Of a stretch of 64,000 bases of DNA, positions 2,645 through 41,799 are shown in pieces. Each line of letters opens with the position of its first letter. Positions within the stretch are counted from its first letter, which is position 1. The notes beneath the pieces are model-generated. The model was not told the DNA's origin and did no database searches. It was given only the letters and a program-made list of their open reading frames with translations. The DNA is taken from contig NZ_LT629732.1 of NCBI RefSeq assembly GCF_900104745.1, positions 868,001-932,000 of the forward strand. The letters are read 5' to 3'. Both the position numbers and the translations under genes were made by a program. The stretch comes from Actinopolymorpha singaporensis (GTDB lineage Bacteria; Actinomycetota; Actinomycetes; Propionibacteriales; Actinopolymorphaceae).

Positions 2645-2974
2645 ATGATCTTCATCACCGCGAGGTTCCGCGTACGGCCCGAGGACGCCGACCGGTGGCC
2701 CGAGATCGTCGCCGACTTCACCGAGGCCACGCGCAGCGAGCCCGGCTGCCTGTGGTTCGACTGGTCGCGCAGCCTGGACGACCCGACGGAGTACGTCCTG
2801 GTCGAGGCGTTCCGCGACGACGACGCGGGAGCGGCACACGTGCAGTCGGCGCACTTCCAGGAGGCGCGCCGGACGTTGCCGCCCCACCTCGCCCAGACGC
2901 CGCGCATCGTCAACGTCAAGACGCCGGGGGACGACTGGTCCGAACTCGGCGAGATGGCCGTGTCCGGGGAGTAG
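2645..2974 (+). CDS. antibiotic biosynthesis monooxygenase (ABM) domain protein
   Basis: 109 residues from ATG 2645, chosen because GGGGAGG lies 7 bases before it; an in-frame reading further upstream has no such site. The fold is seen as IFITARFRVRPEDADRWPEI, then EPGCLWFDWSRSLDDPTEYV, LVEAFRDDDAGAAH and SAHFQ. These match the dimeric ferredoxin-like ABM/YgiN family of small cofactor-free quinol-type monooxygenases. The substrate cannot be told. It is divergent from the sigma/DGPF operon, with about 185 bases between starts. Confidence 0.85.
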   Translation: MIFITARFRVRPEDADRWPEIVADFTEATRSEPGCLWFDWSRSLDDPTEYVLVEAFRDDDAGAAHVQSAHFQEARRTLPPHLAQTPRIVNVKTPGDDWSELGEMAVSGE

Positions 2975-3033
2975 CCCGGGCGCAGTAAGGCCGGCGTGCG
3001 GTTGGTGAGCCGGCAGGCGAACTCATCGGTGGC

Positions 3034-4611
3034 TCATGCGCTGCCCTGACCCTCCGCGCCCTCGTCCTCCGCGTCCTGGTCCTGGTGGGCGTTCACCGTG
3101 GCCTGCGGGTCGCGCGGCTGGAGCGGGCTGGTCGCCGGACCGGTGAGGACGGCGCCGTCGGGATCGAACCTCGACCCGTGGCAGTTGCAGTCCCAGCTGG
3201 TCTCGGCCGCGTTCCAGTGCAGCCGGCAGCCCATGTGCGAGCAGGTGGGTCGTACGCCGTGCAGGTTGCCGGCCGGGTCGCGGTAGACGCCCATCGCCTG
3301 ACCGCCCACCCGGATCAGCCCACCGGTGCCCGGGAGCACCTGGTCGAGCGTCCGCGACTCCGGCGTACCGAGGTACCCGCCGACGAACTCCTTGCCCACG
3401 TGCAGGTTGTCGGTGACCGTCTTGACGACTCCGCGTACGTCGCCGATCCGGCGGGCGTCGAACGCCGACGCCCACGGGTTGGAACGGCCGGACATGGCGT
3501 CGACCAGCATCATCGCGGCGGCGGATCCGTTGCTCAGGCCCCACTTCCCGAAGCCGGTGGCCACCAAGATCGCGTGGTGGCCGGGCGCGGCTCCGACGTA
3601 CGGGATGTGGTCGGGGGTGGTGAAGTCCTGCGCGGACCAGGTGTACTCCACGTCCTCGACGTCGAACGTCGCCCGCGTCCACTCCACCAGGTCGCGGACC
3701 TGTTCCTCGGTGTCGACATCCGACGCCCCGGTCTCGTGGCCGTTGCCGACGACGATGATGCCGTTCGGGCCGGGGTCCAGCCACGGCCGCGTCGACCGGG
3801 TGGGCTGGTCGACCGACAGAGTCATCGCGGTCGGTGCGGGCCCACGCAGCCGCGCGGCCAGGCCGTACGACCGCTGCGGGCGCGTGCGCGCGAAGTAGCC
3901 GCCGATCATGCCCAGCGGCAGCAGGGTCGCCATCACCACGTGCCTGGCCCGGACCACACCGGAGGAGGTGGTCACCGTGACCACGCGGTCGCGCCCCTCG
4001 GACACGTCGGTGACCCGGGTGTCCTCGTGGATGCCGGCACCCGCCTCGGCCGCGGCGGCCGCCACGCCGCGCAGGTAGCGGACCGGGTGGAAGTGCAGTT
4101 GGTCGTCGAAGCGTACGGCGGCCGCGACGTTGAAAGGCTGCTCGGCGGTGTCGGCCATGCCGGCCGCGATTCCGACCTTGGTGGCCGCGGCGACCTCGGC
4201 CTCGAGTTCACCGACCCGGCCCTCGTCCAGGGTGTAGGCGTAGGACGGTGCCCGGGTCAGCCGGCAGTCGATGCCGGACCGCTCCACGAGGTCGGTCACC
4301 AGCTCCATCCCGGCCGCGTTGGCCGCGGCGTACTGCCCGGCGGCGGTCCAGCCGTGCCGCTTGGCGAGTTCGGCGTAGATCAGGCCGTGTTGCGTGGTGA
4401 CCTTGGCCGTGGTGTGCCCGGACGAGCCGGCGGTGAGCCGTCGGGCTTCGAGTACGACGGTCTGCAGGCCCGCGCGCTGGGCGAGCAGGGCGGTGGTGAG
4501 GCCGACCAGCCCGCCGCCGACCACCGCGACATCGACGTCCAGGTCGGTGTCCAGGGCCGGGTAGGTCGGCCCCTCCGGTCCGGTGAACCACACACTGGCA
4601 TGTCTGGTCAT
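3034..4611 (-). CDS. FAD-dependent oxidoreductase with C-terminal Rieske [2Fe-2S] domain
   Basis: 525 residues. The N-terminus has a dinucleotide-binding motif, DVDVAVVGGGLVGLTTALLA, followed by EARRLTAGSSGHTTAKVT, as in DAO/glycine-oxidase-like flavoproteins. The last about 80 residues are a Rieske domain: CSHMGC near residue 457 and CNCHGSRFDPDG near 476 supply the two Cys and two His ligands. This arrangement (DadA-like flavoprotein plus Rieske) is common in actinomycetes and the substrate is generally unknown. The ATG at 4611 is preceded by GAGGAG. The tail DQDAEDEGAEGQGSA is low-complexity and acidic. It is a single gene, with about 90 bases to the next gene upstream. Confidence 0.9.
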   Translation of the reverse strand: MTRHASVWFTGPEGPTYPALDTDLDVDVAVVGGGLVGLTTALLAQRAGLQTVVLEARRLTAGSSGHTTAKVTTQHGLIYAELAKRHGWTAAGQYAAANAAGMELVTDLVERSGIDCRLTRAPSYAYTLDEGRVGELEAEVAAATKVGIAAGMADTAEQPFNVAAAVRFDDQLHFHPVRYLRGVAAAAAEAGAGIHEDTRVTDVSEGRDRVVTVTTSSGVVRARHVVMATLLPLGMIGGYFARTRPQRSYGLAARLRGPAPTAMTLSVDQPTRSTRPWLDPGPNGIIVVGNGHETGASDVDTEEQVRDLVEWTRATFDVEDVEYTWSAQDFTTPDHIPYVGAAPGHHAILVATGFGKWGLSNGSAAAMMLVDAMSGRSNPWASAFDARRIGDVRGVVKTVTDNLHVGKEFVGGYLGTPESRTLDQVLPGTGGLIRVGGQAMGVYRDPAGNLHGVRPTCSHMGCRLHWNAAETSWDCNCHGSRFDPDGAVLTGPATSPLQPRDPQATVNAHQDQDAEDEGAEGQGSA

Positions 4612-7510: not shown

Positions 7511-8551
7511 ATGGCGGACGCACCGCTTCGGGTCGGGATCATCGGACTGGGCAGGAGCGGGTGGAACATCCATGCCGACGCGATCGCCGACCACGAGGGG
7601 TTCGAGCTGGCCGCGGTCGCCGACCCGGTGGAGGAGCGGCGGCAGGAGGCCGAGGAACGCTTCGGCTGCGCGGCCCACGCCGAGCCGAAGGGGGTGATCG
7701 GCACAGACGGCCTGGACGTCGTCGTCGTGGCCACGCCCTCCCACACCCACGTCCCCCTCACCGTCGCCGCGCTCGAGGCCGGAAGCCACGTCGTCGTGGA
7801 GAAGCCGATGGCCGCGTCGGTGGCGGAGATGGACGAGCTGATCGCCGTCGCCGACCGGGCCGGCCGGGTGCTCACCTGCTACCTGCCGCGCCGGCTGGAC
7901 GTCGACTTCGACTTCGTCCGGGAGTTACTGGCCTCGGACCTGCTGGGCAGGCTGGTTCTGCTCCGGCGTTCGGTGCACCGCTTCCAGCGGCGGGCCGACT
8001 GGCAGATGCTTCGCAAGTTCGGCGGCGGCGAACTCTCCAACACCGTCCCACACGTACTCGACCAGGTTCTGCTGCTGCTGGAGGAGGAACCGACCGAGGT
8101 GTACGCAGACCTGCGGCACACGGTCGGCCAGGGCGACGCCGAGGATCATGTCAAGCTGATCTTGCGGGGGCAGAACATCCCGCTGGCCGAGGTCGAGTCC
8201 AGTCTGTGCATGGCGATTCCCCAGCCGGCCTGGCAGATCACGGGCACCACCGGAGCGCTGGTCGGCGACGGGCGTACCTTCACCATCCGGTGGTTCGACG
8301 CGGCCGCCGCGAACGCACCGCACCTGGACGAGGGGCCGGCGGCGGGCCGGAGGTACGGCAGTGGCGAGACGATCGACTGGCAGGAGGAGGTCCGCACGCT
8401 GGGCCGCGGCACCAGGTCGGCCGCGTTGAGGTACTACGACCGGCTGGAGGCGACCCTGCGGGCGGGTGCGGATCTGTTCGTCACGCCGGAGAGCGTGCGG
8501 CGGCAGATCGGGATCATCGAGGAGGCCCGCCGCCAGACCGGCTACGCCTGA
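7511..8551 (+). CDS. Gfo/Idh/MocA family oxidoreductase
   Basis: 346 residues. The Rossmann start RVGIIGLGRSGWNIHADAIA and the EKPMAASVAEMDELI block (with the catalytic Lys) are intact. The C-terminal alpha/beta domain holds GGGELSNTVPHVLDQVLLLL, where His may serve in catalysis. Family members are NAD(P)-dependent dehydrogenases of sugars, inositols or related alcohols; the substrate is not predictable. The ATG is preceded by GGAGGG. Sequence after the stop is a rearrangement scar, so any original downstream partner is lost. Confidence 0.9.
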   Translation: MADAPLRVGIIGLGRSGWNIHADAIADHEGFELAAVADPVEERRQEAEERFGCAAHAEPKGVIGTDGLDVVVVATPSHTHVPLTVAALEAGSHVVVEKPMAASVAEMDELIAVADRAGRVLTCYLPRRLDVDFDFVRELLASDLLGRLVLLRRSVHRFQRRADWQMLRKFGGGELSNTVPHVLDQVLLLLEEEPTEVYADLRHTVGQGDAEDHVKLILRGQNIPLAEVESSLCMAIPQPAWQITGTTGALVGDGRTFTIRWFDAAAANAPHLDEGPAAGRRYGSGETIDWQEEVRTLGRGTRSAALRYYDRLEATLRAGADLFVTPESVRRQIGIIEEARRQTGYA

Positions 8552-8564
8552 CCCGCTGGCGTTC

Positions 8565-8702
8565 TCAACTCCAAACCGGCATGGCCTCCACCACTTTCCT
8601 GGCAGCGTCGATGACCGCCTTGACCTTTGGGAGAGTCTCGGCGATCTCTTGTGGGGTTACCGGCGGGACTCCCTCGTCGGCTGGTGGCGGCCGGGATCCC
8701 AT
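8565..8702 (-). pseudogene. C-terminal remnant of an unidentified protein
   Basis: On the minus strand a frame ends at 8565 with TPQEIAETLPKVKAVIDAAR and then KVVEAMPVWS. It reads like the natural helical C-terminus of a folded protein, but continues upstream only to an ATG at 8702, where the sequence already codes for GH51 on the other strand. I do not recognise the parent family. Most likely it is a leftover of a deleted gene, joined to the truncated GH51 gene. Confidence 0.45.
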
Positions 8703-9682
8703 GGCAGCAGGAGGAGTGGACCCGCCCGTTGCTGGAGCAGGCGGGAAACCTCGTCGACTACGTTTCGCTGCACCTTTACGGAGCGAGCACGCACCTGTTC
8801 TCGCCGGCGTCCGGCGACGACGACTACGACGCGGTGGTGGCGCAGCCGACGTACTTCGAGCAGCGCATCCAGGACTACTCCCACCTCGTCGCCGACCTGG
8901 CCGTGAAGGCAGGTGTCAACCGGCCGTTGGCACTGGCGCTGGACGAGTGGAACATCCGGCATCTGGAGCCCGCGAGCTGGCCCGAGCCGCTGCCCTCCGA
9001 CGACGGCGGGGTCGTACCACGTGACGTCGCCGTTCCGGACGAGCCACCGACGAACCTCCGGGTCAACCGCTGGAGTCCCCGCACGCTCGCGGACGCGTTG
9101 TTCTACGCCGGGGTGTTCCACACCCTGCACCGCGGCGCCGGCCTGCCCGTGCCGCCGACGATGGCGAACACGGTCAACCTGGTCAACGCGAACGGCCTCG
9201 TCGTCGCCCGACCCGGCGGCGCGGTGAAGTCCGCGTCCTACCACGTGTGGGACCTTTACCAGGACTCCCTGGGCAGCCGGGCGCTCGCGACCCAGGTCGA
9301 CGGCCCGGCCCGGTCCGCGGCCGTACGCCAGGGCGACGAACGCGAGCGCGGCGGCCTGCACACCACGCGTCCCGCCGTCGTCGCCTACCTCGACGTGACC
9401 GCGACCCTCACCGGGGACCGGCGCTCCCTGCGCGTCGCGGTCATCAACCGGCACCGGTCGGCGCCGATCCGGGCACGGATCGTCCTGGACGGCAGGGGGG
9501 AAGTGTTGCCGCCCACCGCGGACGTGCGCGATCTCGGCGCCGACGTCGACGACGTACTCGCCGGCAACAGCCTGAGCAACCCCGACAACGTGAGCGTCCG
9601 CCGGCGCGGCCGGGTGGACGTGCCGTCCGGTGAGTTCGAGTTCCCGCCCCACTCGGTGACCGTCCTGTCCTTCGGTCTCTGA
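8675..9682 (+). pseudogene. alpha-L-arabinofuranosidase (GH51), N-terminally truncated
   Basis: About 336 residues of the C-terminal part of a GH51 protein, whose full length is normally about 500. Seen: VDYVSLHLYGASTHLFSP, then LALALDEWNIRHLEPASWPE (the Glu of DEWN is the usual nucleophile). Next come RVNRWSPRTLADALFYAGVF, MANTVNLVNANGLVV and a beta-sandwich end (PSGEFEFPPHSVTVLSFGL). The first half of the barrel, including the acid/base Glu of the GNE motif, is missing. Homology begins near 8675 with RRLVAAGIPWQQEEW, with no start codon or ribosome site to fit. The 3' end is intact, so a deletion of the front is likely. Confidence 0.85.
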
Positions 9683-38893: not shown

Positions 38894-40174
38894 TCACACG
38901 GCTGCGCGCAACCCCTCGTCGGACTCATCGGGCACCTCGGGTACCTCGGCCGTCGAGGTGAAGGTCCGCAGGCTCCGGTTGGTGGCGGCGACCCCCGCCA
39001 CTCCGGCCACACACATCACCCCGCCCACGACGAGGGCGAACGTCGCCGAGGTCAGGTCGCCCACGAGGCCGCCCCGGAAGTTGCCCACGTCGGGCCCGGA
39101 AGCCCCGATGACATGCTCGACGGCGCTGACCCGACCGCGGTGGGAGTCGGGGGTCGCGAGCTGCACGATCGATCCACGCGAGATCACCGAGAAGGTGTCC
39201 GCCGCGCCGGCCACCGCCAGGCAGCCGAGCCCGAGCCAGAGATACGGCGCGAGCCCGAACCCCGCCAGGCCCACGCCCCACACCCCCGCGGTCACCAGCA
39301 TCACCACGCCCGGCCGGCCGGACCGCGTGACGCGCCCCGACACCGCCCCCGCACACACCCCGCCCACCGCGATCGCGGTGAAGAACAGCCCCAGCGTCTC
39401 CGGCCGGCCACCGAACCGCTCGGAGTTGACCACCGGGAACAACGCGACCGGCATGGCCAGCACGGTGGCGAAGACGTCGGTGAGGAACGCGCCACCCAAC
39501 GCCGGCCTGCTCGCGACGAACCGCCAGCCCTCCCAGACGGTACGGATGCCGGGGCGAGCGGCGGTGCCCACCGGTCGCATCGCCGGCAACCCACGCACGC
39601 CGTACAGCGCGGCGAGGAAGGCGACCGCGTCCACCAGGTAACAGACGCCCACCCCGGCGTGCGCGATGACCAGGCCGCCCAGCGCCGGCCCACCGAGCAT
39701 GGCGAGCTGGAAGCTGACATGGAACAACGCCACACCTGCGGTCACCTGTTCGGTGGGCAGCAACCGCGGGACGAAGGTACGCCGCGCCGGCGCGCCCAGC
39801 GCACCACCCGCGCTCTGCGCCGCCACGAGGACCAGCAGGACGGCGTATGAACGCAGTTCGGTGAACGCCTGCACCGCCAGCAGCCCGGCGAGCACCAGCT
39901 GCACGGCGGTCGTGACCAGGACGAGGCGGCGGCGGTCGCACGCGTCCGCCAGCGACCCGCCGACCAGTCCGAACACCACCATCGGCACGGCCTGGACGAG
40001 GCCGAGCAGCCCGACGGCCGCCGGACTGCCGGTCAGCTCCCACATTTGGTAGAGCACCGCCACCATGGTCAGCTGCCCGCCGAGCCGGGACAGCGTGGTG
40101 CCCACCCACAGGCGGCGGAACGCTGGACTGGACCGCAGCGGCCGGGTGTCCAGGAACCCGTCGAAGAAGCTCAC
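38894..40174 (-). CDS. MFS transporter (MFS_3/EntS-like)
   Basis: 426 residues from GTG 40174. About twelve membrane segments starting SSPAFRRLWVGTTLSRLGGQ. The A-motif loop GGSLADACDRRRLVL follows, then APARRTFVPRLLPTEQVTAG and ATPDSHRGRVSAVEHVIGAS, the typical blocks of the EntS/MFS_3 exporter branch. The start overlaps the MarR stop (GTGA), so a drug or metabolite exporter controlled by that regulator is likely. Confidence 0.92.
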   Translation of the reverse strand: MSFFDGFLDTRPLRSSPAFRRLWVGTTLSRLGGQLTMVAVLYQMWELTGSPAAVGLLGLVQAVPMVVFGLVGGSLADACDRRRLVLVTTAVQLVLAGLLAVQAFTELRSYAVLLVLVAAQSAGGALGAPARRTFVPRLLPTEQVTAGVALFHVSFQLAMLGGPALGGLVIAHAGVGVCYLVDAVAFLAALYGVRGLPAMRPVGTAARPGIRTVWEGWRFVASRPALGGAFLTDVFATVLAMPVALFPVVNSERFGGRPETLGLFFTAIAVGGVCAGAVSGRVTRSGRPGVVMLVTAGVWGVGLAGFGLAPYLWLGLGCLAVAGAADTFSVISRGSIVQLATPDSHRGRVSAVEHVIGASGPDVGNFRGGLVGDLTSATFALVVGGVMCVAGVAGVAATNRSLRTFTSTAEVPEVPDESDEGLRAAV

Positions 40175-40722
40175 GGCGCGCCGTCCCCGTCGTCCAGGTG
40201 CGCCGCGATCCGGTCCCTGAACGACCGCCGGGCGAGCGCGGCCTCCAGGTCGCGGACCACCTGGCTCAGCGCGTACGGAATCTCGGCCTCGAGGTCGGCG
40301 ACGGCGCGCTCGGTGGCCCGCCACTCCGCCTCGAGGAACGGCAGCACCTCACGGGCGCGCGGTGTCACCGCCACCTCGCGGGTACGGGCGTCGGCGCCCG
40401 GAGTGCTGCGGACGAACCCCTCCCGGCGCAACGCCGCGACCGTCTGGCTCATCGCGGAGTGACTGACGCCGAGCGCGTCGGAGAGCGCCCGGATGGTCAT
40501 CGGGCCCTCCCGGCCGAGCCGGATCAGCGGCCTGGTGAACCGCGGCCGGATCCCGGTCACGCCCCGCTCGGCGTACAGCGCGGCGATCTCGTCGTCCATC
40601 GCGGCCAGCAGAAGGTGCAGCGGCCGCCAGTGGCTCACTTCGGTGGGGTCGGGGCGCTGCCGGCCAGATGGTGGCCGGGCAGGCTTTCGGGCGCGGTCGT
40701 CCGCGGCCGCTGGAGGGACCAT
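40171..40722 (-). CDS. MarR family transcriptional regulator of the MFS operon
   Basis: 183 residues from ATG 40722. A disordered basic N-terminus of about 30 residues is followed by the winged helix: REGPMTIRALSDALGVSHSA, MSQTVAALRREGFVRSTPGA and DARTREVAVTPRAREVLPFL. First gene of the operon with the MFS transporter. A near-palindromic A/T-rich site in its promoter suggests autorepression. Confidence 0.92.
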   Translation of the reverse strand: MVPPAAADDRARKPARPPSGRQRPDPTEVSHWRPLHLLLAAMDDEIAALYAERGVTGIRPRFTRPLIRLGREGPMTIRALSDALGVSHSAMSQTVAALRREGFVRSTPGADARTREVAVTPRAREVLPFLEAEWRATERAVADLEAEIPYALSQVVRDLEAALARRSFRDRIAAHLDDGDGAP

Positions 40723-40756: not shown

Positions 40757-41724
40757 TCAGCGTTTGCGGGCGAGCGTCACCCCGTCCCGTACGGGCAACA
40801 TCACCGACTCGACCCGCTCGTCGTCGCGGACCAGCTCGTTCACCCGGCGGATAGCCGTAACGGCCTCGTCTCGAAACGCCGGGTCGAACGTCCGCCCGCC
40901 CCGGAAGACGTTGTCCAGCACCACCAGCCCGCCGGAGGTGAGTCGGGGCACGATCTCCTCGTAGTACGCCGGGTAGTTGTCCTTGTCCGCGTCCACGAAC
41001 GCGAAGTCGAACGCCGGCTCGTTCGGCAGTGCCCGCAGGGTGTCCAGCGCCGGCCCGATGCGCAGGTCGATCCGGTCGGCCACGCCCGCTCGCTGCCAGT
41101 ACTCCCTCGCCACCGAGGTCCACTCCTCGCTCACGTCGCAGGCGAGCAGCCGTCCGTCCGCGGGCAGCGCACGGGCGACGCACAAGGAGGAGTATCCGGT
41201 GAACACGCCGAGCTCGAGCGCGGTGCGGTGCGGGCACCGGCCAGCCGGACCAGCATGCTCAGCAGGGCGCCCTCGTCGTGCGCGATCTGCATCCCGGCCG
41301 CGTGGCCGGCCACCTCCCTGGTCCGTACGACGAGTTCGGTGAGCAGGTCGTCCGGCGGGGTGCAGTGCGTCTCGAGATAGTCGACGACGACGGGCTGGAC
41401 GAGCTCCAGGGCGTCGCCGTCGGCCGGCTCCGTCCACTCGACCCGAAGCTCCTCCTGGGTGGCGAAGCGCACGAGATGGCGGGCCACGACGTCCTGGATG
41501 CGGGCGAGCGCGTCCGCGTCGACGGCGGTGGCGATCAGGCCGAGATGGGCGGGGCCTGGCGTCAGCACGCACTGCCCGCGCTCGAGCGCGATCACGCCGC
41601 GGCCGTCAGCGCCGACTTCCGCGGTGGCCAGCTCCGCGGTGGCCAGCTGGCCGAGGTGGGAGACCAACTGCTTGACGTAGCGGTCGGGACGTTCTGTCGC
41701 GACCTCCGCTGTGGAGATGGGCAT
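40757..41724 (-). pseudogene. DUF2218-SAM O-methyltransferase fusion, frameshifted by a 5-base duplication
   Basis: From ATG 41724 the first about 100 residues are a DUF2218 domain: PISTAEVATERPDRYVKQLV, ALARIQDVVARHLVRFATQE and ELRVEWTEP. They run straight into an O-methyltransferase start (VDYLETHCTPPDDLLTELVV, AAGMQIAHDEGALLSMLVRL, AGART). There GCGGT is doubled (41220-41229) and the frame shifts. In the new frame the methyltransferase goes on without a gap: ALELGVFTGYSSLCVARALP, FDFAFVDADKDNYPAYYEEI and LVVLDNVFRGGRTFD, ending VMLPVRDGVTLARKR. Taking out the five bases gives one protein of about 320 residues. Either the gene is switched off by slippage, or the base call is wrong. Confidence 0.8.
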
Positions 41725-41799
41725 CGGGATCAGCAAGCTCCTCGGGTGGGTTGCGAAGTGGCCGCCGCTACCACCCTAGGGCTGCCTGGTGACCTGCTC

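Follow-up and report, generated by a model that had tools for sequence, protein, structure and literature searches.

A probably recently broken two-domain O-methyltransferase gene of catechol type in Actinopolymorpha singaporensis, with DUF2218 as a putative substrate-handling accessory module

The two halves of the gene described here are each related to proteins that have been studied on their own. For the O-methyltransferase family PF01596, the reaction, the need for a metal and the metal ligands (Asp139, Asp165 and Asn166, together with Lys142) are given in the available text of PMC6543040. DUF2218 (PF09981), by comparison, is a family of no assigned function, and hence the value of a fusion partner as a clue. 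The only solved member that was found, PA4090 of Pseudomonas aeruginosa (2jpi), is a stand-alone domain, and on a P. aeruginosa plasmid a DUF2218 gene precedes hpaBC. Two further members have been noticed in the context of metal uptake: mllG is a DUF2218 gene within the methylolanthanin metallophore locus (PMC11317620, in the portion available), and VCA0233, again according to the part of the source that is available, belongs to the DUF2218 family and lies in a siderophore locus. A fusion of DUF2218 to a methyltransferase is not described in the available text of the DUF2218 literature that was searched, and protein databases may list it.

The window (the whole stretch of DNA that was analysed, 64,000 nucleotides of contig NZ_LT629732.1) carries one gene in which both domains are encoded, but in two different frames (Table 1). 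On balance, the sequence comparisons favour reading it as a recently broken two-domain O-methyltransferase of catechol type, in which DUF2218 would be an accessory module that binds or presents the substrate. The gene start at 41724 agrees with the MP... start of the homologues. Membership of DUF2218 is clear (81 bits against the PF09981 profile, with a curated cut-off of 29.1), and that of PF01596 likewise exceeds its cut-off (168.6 bits versus 22), but in one frame and from profile position 47: the open reading frame 40757-41572 on the minus strand matches Methyltransf_3 with an E-value of 1.4e-49 only from that position onwards. Neither frame has a stop codon in the stretch that the two share, 41131-41572. 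While 18 relatives have an uninterrupted PF01596 catalytic domain, the frame break lies inside this domain in the window copy, which by its sequence is thus a broken relative of the class I catechol O-methyltransferases and not a working member. The source genome contains one DUF2218 match and four PF01596 matches. Directly downstream, on the same strand, lie MarR-type and MFS genes (38894-40324 and 40171-40722), which may be transcribed together with the broken gene as one unit; in NCBIfam the MFS gene is matched best by the enterobactin exporter EntS (E 1.5e-63, which does not reach the curated cut-off).

Table 1. Positions in the window of the broken gene and of its parts
Feature	Position	Strand	Remarks
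Whole broken gene, DUF2218 and O-methyltransferase	40757-41724	-	ATG at 41724, TGA stop at 40759-40757
DUF2218 domain (PF09981)	41434-41712	-	Residues 9-101 of ORF 41131-41736; Pfam E 8.6e-23
In-frame tandem duplication of 15 bp inside DUF2218	41618-41648	-	Five extra residues, LATAE repeated
Methyltransferase, first part, in the DUF2218 frame	41224-41388	-	ORF residues 117-171; intact-family profile E 5.2e-21
Period-5 tandem run GCGGTGCGGTGCGG (plus-strand reading), site of the frame change	41220-41233	-	14 nt, 2.8 copies
Methyltransferase, remainder, in the other frame	40763-41224	-	SAM motif I, metal ligands, C-terminus
Out-of-frame tail added by the DUF2218 frame before its stop	41131-41219	-	ORF 41131-41736

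The first-pass annotation had the frame change fall exactly at a doubled GCGGT, with DUF2218 running into the methyltransferase without a gap. The run itself is present (GCGGTGCGGT at 41220-41229, the period-5 match continuing to 41233) and the two frames do meet there, but the site is not at the domain junction: it falls within the methyltransferase, immediately ahead of SAM motif I (LELGVFTGYSS). In one and the same reading frame, DUF2218 extends to about residue 101 and the methyltransferase occupies the residues from about 117 to about 171. The gapless joining has to be given up, since a linker separates the domains in the intact homologues (residues 99-118, of low confidence in the predicted model), the intact two-domain enzyme having about 315 residues. 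Because the SAM-binding core and all that follows it are out of frame, no functional methyltransferase would be expected from the window copy; ribosomes starting at 41724 would produce DUF2218, followed by some 55-60 residues from the start of the methyltransferase and then a brief stretch of nonsense sequence. Most likely, judging from the reading frames, this copy no longer makes the enzyme.

That the two domains belong to a single gene was confirmed by looking at the same gene in relatives, 18 of which have a single unbroken frame for DUF2218 and the methyltransferase, and this rules out two separate genes as the state of the family. These relatives are made up of two members of the genus, nine named Actinomycete contigs and seven places from a survey of the class. 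More specifically, among the five other genomes of the genus, G002 and G005 have the fusion in one frame and three have no match; of eleven named contigs, nine have the fusion (Acrocarpospora, Rhizocola, two Nonomuraea, three Streptomyces, Kribbella and Kitasatospora) and two have DUF2218 alone; and the class survey, with DUF2218 in 42 of 394 genomes, yielded seven fusions among 40 places fetched, these being 40 of the 44 places listed outside the source genome (those of G362, G386, G377 and G110 were left out). A tree of the methyltransferase half places the window in one group (98/94, starred) together with two Nonomuraea loci, G002, G005 and L005. The last of these, 1042-1725 on the minus strand in another genus of the same family, is a methyltransferase without DUF2218 inside the fused clade, where DUF2218 was likely lost, to go by the tree; the enzyme there can therefore apparently do without it.

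The tandem at the break site is found in none of the 18 intact relatives, and the gene retains nearly all residues that are invariant in the relatives, namely 23 of 24 before the break and 58 of 59 after it; when relatives were left out singly as a control, they lost 0-3 and 0-4 such residues respectively (the first half of L082 being excluded). Counting changes specific to the window against those specific to its sister G005, with four outgroups in turn, gives 26 v 9, 19 v 7, 17 v 6 and 12 v 12 for the first half, and 8 v 8, 7 v 7, 11 v 5 and 5 v 10 for the second. The excess of window-specific changes in the DUF2218 half, seen with three of the four outgroups, is a possible sign of relaxed constraint. 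The 15-bp duplication in the same half is absent from all 17 comparable relatives (the L082 row being excluded), and a single gene therefore carries two tandem duplications, the period-5 run and this in-frame repeat.

Frame breaks were also searched for by codon usage in 464 kb, namely the 64-kb window plus 400 kb taken from elsewhere in the same genome. Seven candidate frame changes were obtained, with this gene scoring highest; the six others, judged by eye, are overlapping start and stop codons of neighbouring genes (TGATG, ATGA, GTGA, TTGA). The scan thus found no internal frame break elsewhere in the 464 kb, so the assembly is not generally frame-damaged. Period-5 runs of at least 14 nt occur four times in the 464 kb, with about one per 64 kb expected from second-order Markov shuffles. 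The tandem alone is therefore not rare, and what stands out is its coincidence with the sole internal frame break found by the scan. The lesion itself is ordinary. As far as sequence goes, the earlier proposal of a recent lesion is borne out by the retained invariant residues and by the lack of another break in the 464 kb, and the broken gene appears to be either a pseudogene of recent origin or the result of a rare error in the sequence. Slippage at the tandem would have broken the gene recently enough that no further decay is clear.

We infer such a recent slippage lesion as the cause, with a sequence error as its main rival. An error of sequencing or assembly, with the real gene intact, would agree with the lack of clear decay downstream, where a single invariant residue is missing, and with the intact copies in two genomes of the genus; it is nevertheless unlikely, as a clean tandem expansion is not the usual type of error, which is of the homopolymer kind, and as an assembly with no other internal break found by the scan in 464 kb does not look error-ridden. 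Much less credible is the phase-variable on/off switch through slippage of the 5-base unit that had been suggested at first. The tandem repeat does sit in the coding frame, but a contingency locus in which copy number varies among relatives is not what is seen, the tract being in 0 of 18; its 2.8 copies are short, contingency tracts usually being longer than this, and period-5 runs of this length are about as frequent as chance. The switch is rejected on the grounds of the missing tract in relatives and of the chance frequency of such runs. Least credible of all is programmed ribosomal frameshifting as the means of joining the two frames, for which the frames being open across 41131-41572 would at least leave room. 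No canonical slippery heptamer was seen by eye in the overlap of the reading frames, the z-score for RNA folding (-1.56) amounts to weak evidence, and a conserved frameshift is contradicted by the relatives, which, being 18 of 18 in one frame, need none; it is for this last reason that the reading is rejected.

By its sequence, the methyltransferase half is of the metal-dependent SafC/COMT type, the catechol type. Among solved structures, an intact homologue comes closest to SafC (5lhm; phmmer E 4.7e-58), which we take to be a catechol O-methyltransferase although the PDB title does not say so, and lower matches are titled catechol O-methyltransferase, from Streptomyces avermitilis (8c9s), Niastella koreensis (7cvu) and mammals. 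The expected metal ligands are in place, D238, K241, D264 and N265 being invariant in 9 of 9 aligned homologues and the motif being present in the second half of the window gene. There is thus a strong case, drawn from the family, that the intact protein would methylate a catechol-type hydroxyl with SAM and a divalent metal; in its catalytic half, a catechol-type substrate would be held on the metal and would receive the methyl group of SAM on one of its hydroxyls.

A search for further fusions of DUF2218 with methyltransferases, as had been proposed, brought to light a separate set in Alphaproteobacteria. Three plasmid loci of Agrobacterium and Ancylobacter (L117, L118 and L155) encode such proteins of 313-319 residues, with the domains in the same order as in the actinomycete fusion; however, their methyltransferase sits on a distant branch, nearest to unfused alphaproteobacterial enzymes (65-79% identity to those of Martelella, Rhizobium and others), and a PadR gene precedes them instead of a divergent ArsR-type gene. 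At two of the unfused alphaproteobacterial methyltransferases (L153 and L154) no DUF2218 is annotated. A single clade of all 22 fused rows is rejected (AU p 2.15e-5, in a tree of 55 rows, some long branches of which weaken exact placements), and by these phylogenetic results the two domains have been joined at least twice in evolution. When a domain joins the same kind of enzyme repeatedly, the clue is stronger than one fusion would provide, as a chance joining is unlikely to be repeated.

Several observations were made along the way. At L118 (7983-8924) and L155 (2545-3504) the publicly annotated gene is confined to the methyltransferase part (8355-8924 and 2890-3504, respectively), so that DUF2218 is missing from it. 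A subtype B tannase gene (L155, 238-1827) adjoins the PadR and DUF2218-methyltransferase genes, which fits polyphenol substrates. Other partners of DUF2218 were each seen in one genome as an open reading frame only: a Methyltransf_25 domain followed by DUF2218, which is a third type of methyltransferase and in reverse order (L108, 6720-8318), a DUF2218-GNAT frame (L088, 7958-8845) and an Ldh_2-DUF2218 frame (L087, 5562-8303). On a Streptomyces mirabilis plasmid (L123, 5263-6642), a methyltransferase gene is closely followed, in the same orientation, by a stand-alone DUF2218 gene.

The DUF2218 reading frame of the window matches 2jpi (phmmer, E 1.4e-10), and the predicted model of a homologue, L041 (pLDDT 95.0; a model of the homologue and not of the window protein), has the fold of 2jpi with a Z-score of 13.3. 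This fold we take to be TBP-like. The next matches of the model are C-terminal domains of PMM/PGM (Z up to 11.9), Roco COR (10.3), the N-terminal domain of human spermine synthase (3c6k; Z 9.7, with 93 residues aligned at an rmsd of 3.1) and TBP (9.6), in a search in which an absent match is not always informative. Across 73 sequences, one per locus, the best-kept residues of DUF2218 are a Thr, the pairs Arg-Tyr and Gln-Leu, two His and a final Trp (60-99%).

The neighbourhoods of stand-alone DUF2218 genes on plasmids give another type of evidence, in that 9 of 17 such genes have siderophore genes at a distance of about 6 kb or less, counted by eye, versus none of 20 control windows (12 kb each, cut from five stretches of 48 kb on five of these plasmids). 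The 17 loci were taken from the 60 listed among 138 matching records, chosen by organism and presence of annotation and not at random, and they are not independent because related species are among them. The first six gave two with siderophore genes, two with aromatic genes and two with neither; the eleven that were added after the pattern had been noticed gave seven, one and three. Four of the nine loci (L128, L129, L133, L134) have two IucA/IucC genes, an AMP-binding gene, DUF6005 and a gene of a sugar-phosphate isomerase family, a set that resembles the mll/rhodopetrobactin and asb sets; at a fifth, L135, DUF6005, a TonB receptor and siderophore ABC genes are near DUF2218. Neighbours linked to dihydroxy-aromatic compounds (hpaEDH, hpaBC, hmgA/hppD) occur at 3 of the 17 loci, but aromatic-degradation genes are not in excess there (3/17 versus 4/20 control windows), and a link of the family to aromatic degradation was accordingly discarded; 5 of the 17 loci have neither kind. 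Within the Actinomycetes, counting two neighbours a side, the 25 commonest families listed near fused genes (76 neighbours), and likewise those near stand-alone DUF2218 genes (131 neighbours), include none for siderophores. A general siderophore link of DUF2218 is thus not seen among the listed families of that class, and the link rests on Alphaproteobacteria and on published loci.

Taken together, the type of enzyme, the fusions (at least two) and the siderophore neighbours on plasmids are compatible with DUF2218 helping to bind or present the methyl acceptor, and we infer with moderate confidence that it positions or selects the substrate of the intact enzyme, which might be a free catechol or a catecholate chelate. 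This reading has to accommodate the fusion of DUF2218 to other domains as well, and the unfused enzyme at L005 within the fused clade. A dimerisation or stability domain, by analogy with spermine synthase, is a less likely role: the DUF2218 model resembles the N-terminal domain of 3c6k, and in that human enzyme the N-terminal domains form the dimer interface, its activity needing the dimer (PMC4207787, in the text available). The likeness is no proof of role, since a shared fold shows no function; PMM/PGM, Roco COR and TBP score as high or higher, and stand-alone DUF2218 in siderophore loci would be left unexplained. It is rather improbable that what DUF2218 recognises in petrobactin-like siderophores is not the catechol but their polyamine or the ferric chelate as a whole, given that neither the fusion to catechol-type methyltransferases nor the hpaBC and hpaEDH neighbours would then be explained, even though petrobactin clusters, and apparently those like them, carry polyamine parts and Leisingera has polyamine genes in the same cluster. 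Methylolanthanin, moreover, has a linker of spermidine type (PMC11317620, available portion).

The substrate-handling reading may be extended by the regulators found next to the fused genes. A divergent ArsR-type gene of one family is found beside 13 of 19 fused loci (L033-L040, L074, L082, L094, L096 and L103), including that of G002 and excluding the window and G005; in the source genome this family has distant matches elsewhere only (best 34% identity). In the alphaproteobacterial fusions, the gene overlaps the end of the PadR gene by one base in 3 of 3 cases. A dedicated winged-helix regulator beside the enzyme suggests induction by a substrate, and the intact copies with such neighbours could be inducible enzymes that mask or detoxify catechols. 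More tentatively, DUF2218 might be a widespread catechol-recognition module that acts alone in petrobactin-like loci and was fused, twice or more and beside a winged-helix regulator, into a self-targeting catechol-capping enzyme. If this were true, capped catechols could no longer bind metal or autoxidise. Given the recurrent fusion and the siderophore loci, the role of DUF2218 can be approached by simply asking whether it binds catechols and catecholate chelates.

Compared with described systems, the methyltransferase half is familiar. SafC of Myxococcus xanthus (5lhm/5log) has 46% identity over about 213 columns to the intact homologue L032 in a structure search, the pattern of metal ligands is shared with SafC and the class I catechol O-methyltransferases, and the spacing of Asp139/Lys142/Asp165/Asn166 in Rv0187, as given in the available part of its description, equals that of D238/K241/D264/N265 in the homologues. 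Unlike the window copy, which is broken, the chains of SafC, 8c9s, 7cvu and Rv0187 are of about 200-240 residues and have no DUF2218. The DUF2218 half likewise has relatives in the metallophore or catechol-siderophore loci of mllG, rhodopetrobactin and VCA0233; these are stand-alone proteins, for which the authors suggested regulation or transport, with no fusion mentioned in the available text of those reports. The fusion is a known class of enzyme with an added DUF2218, joined to it at least twice.
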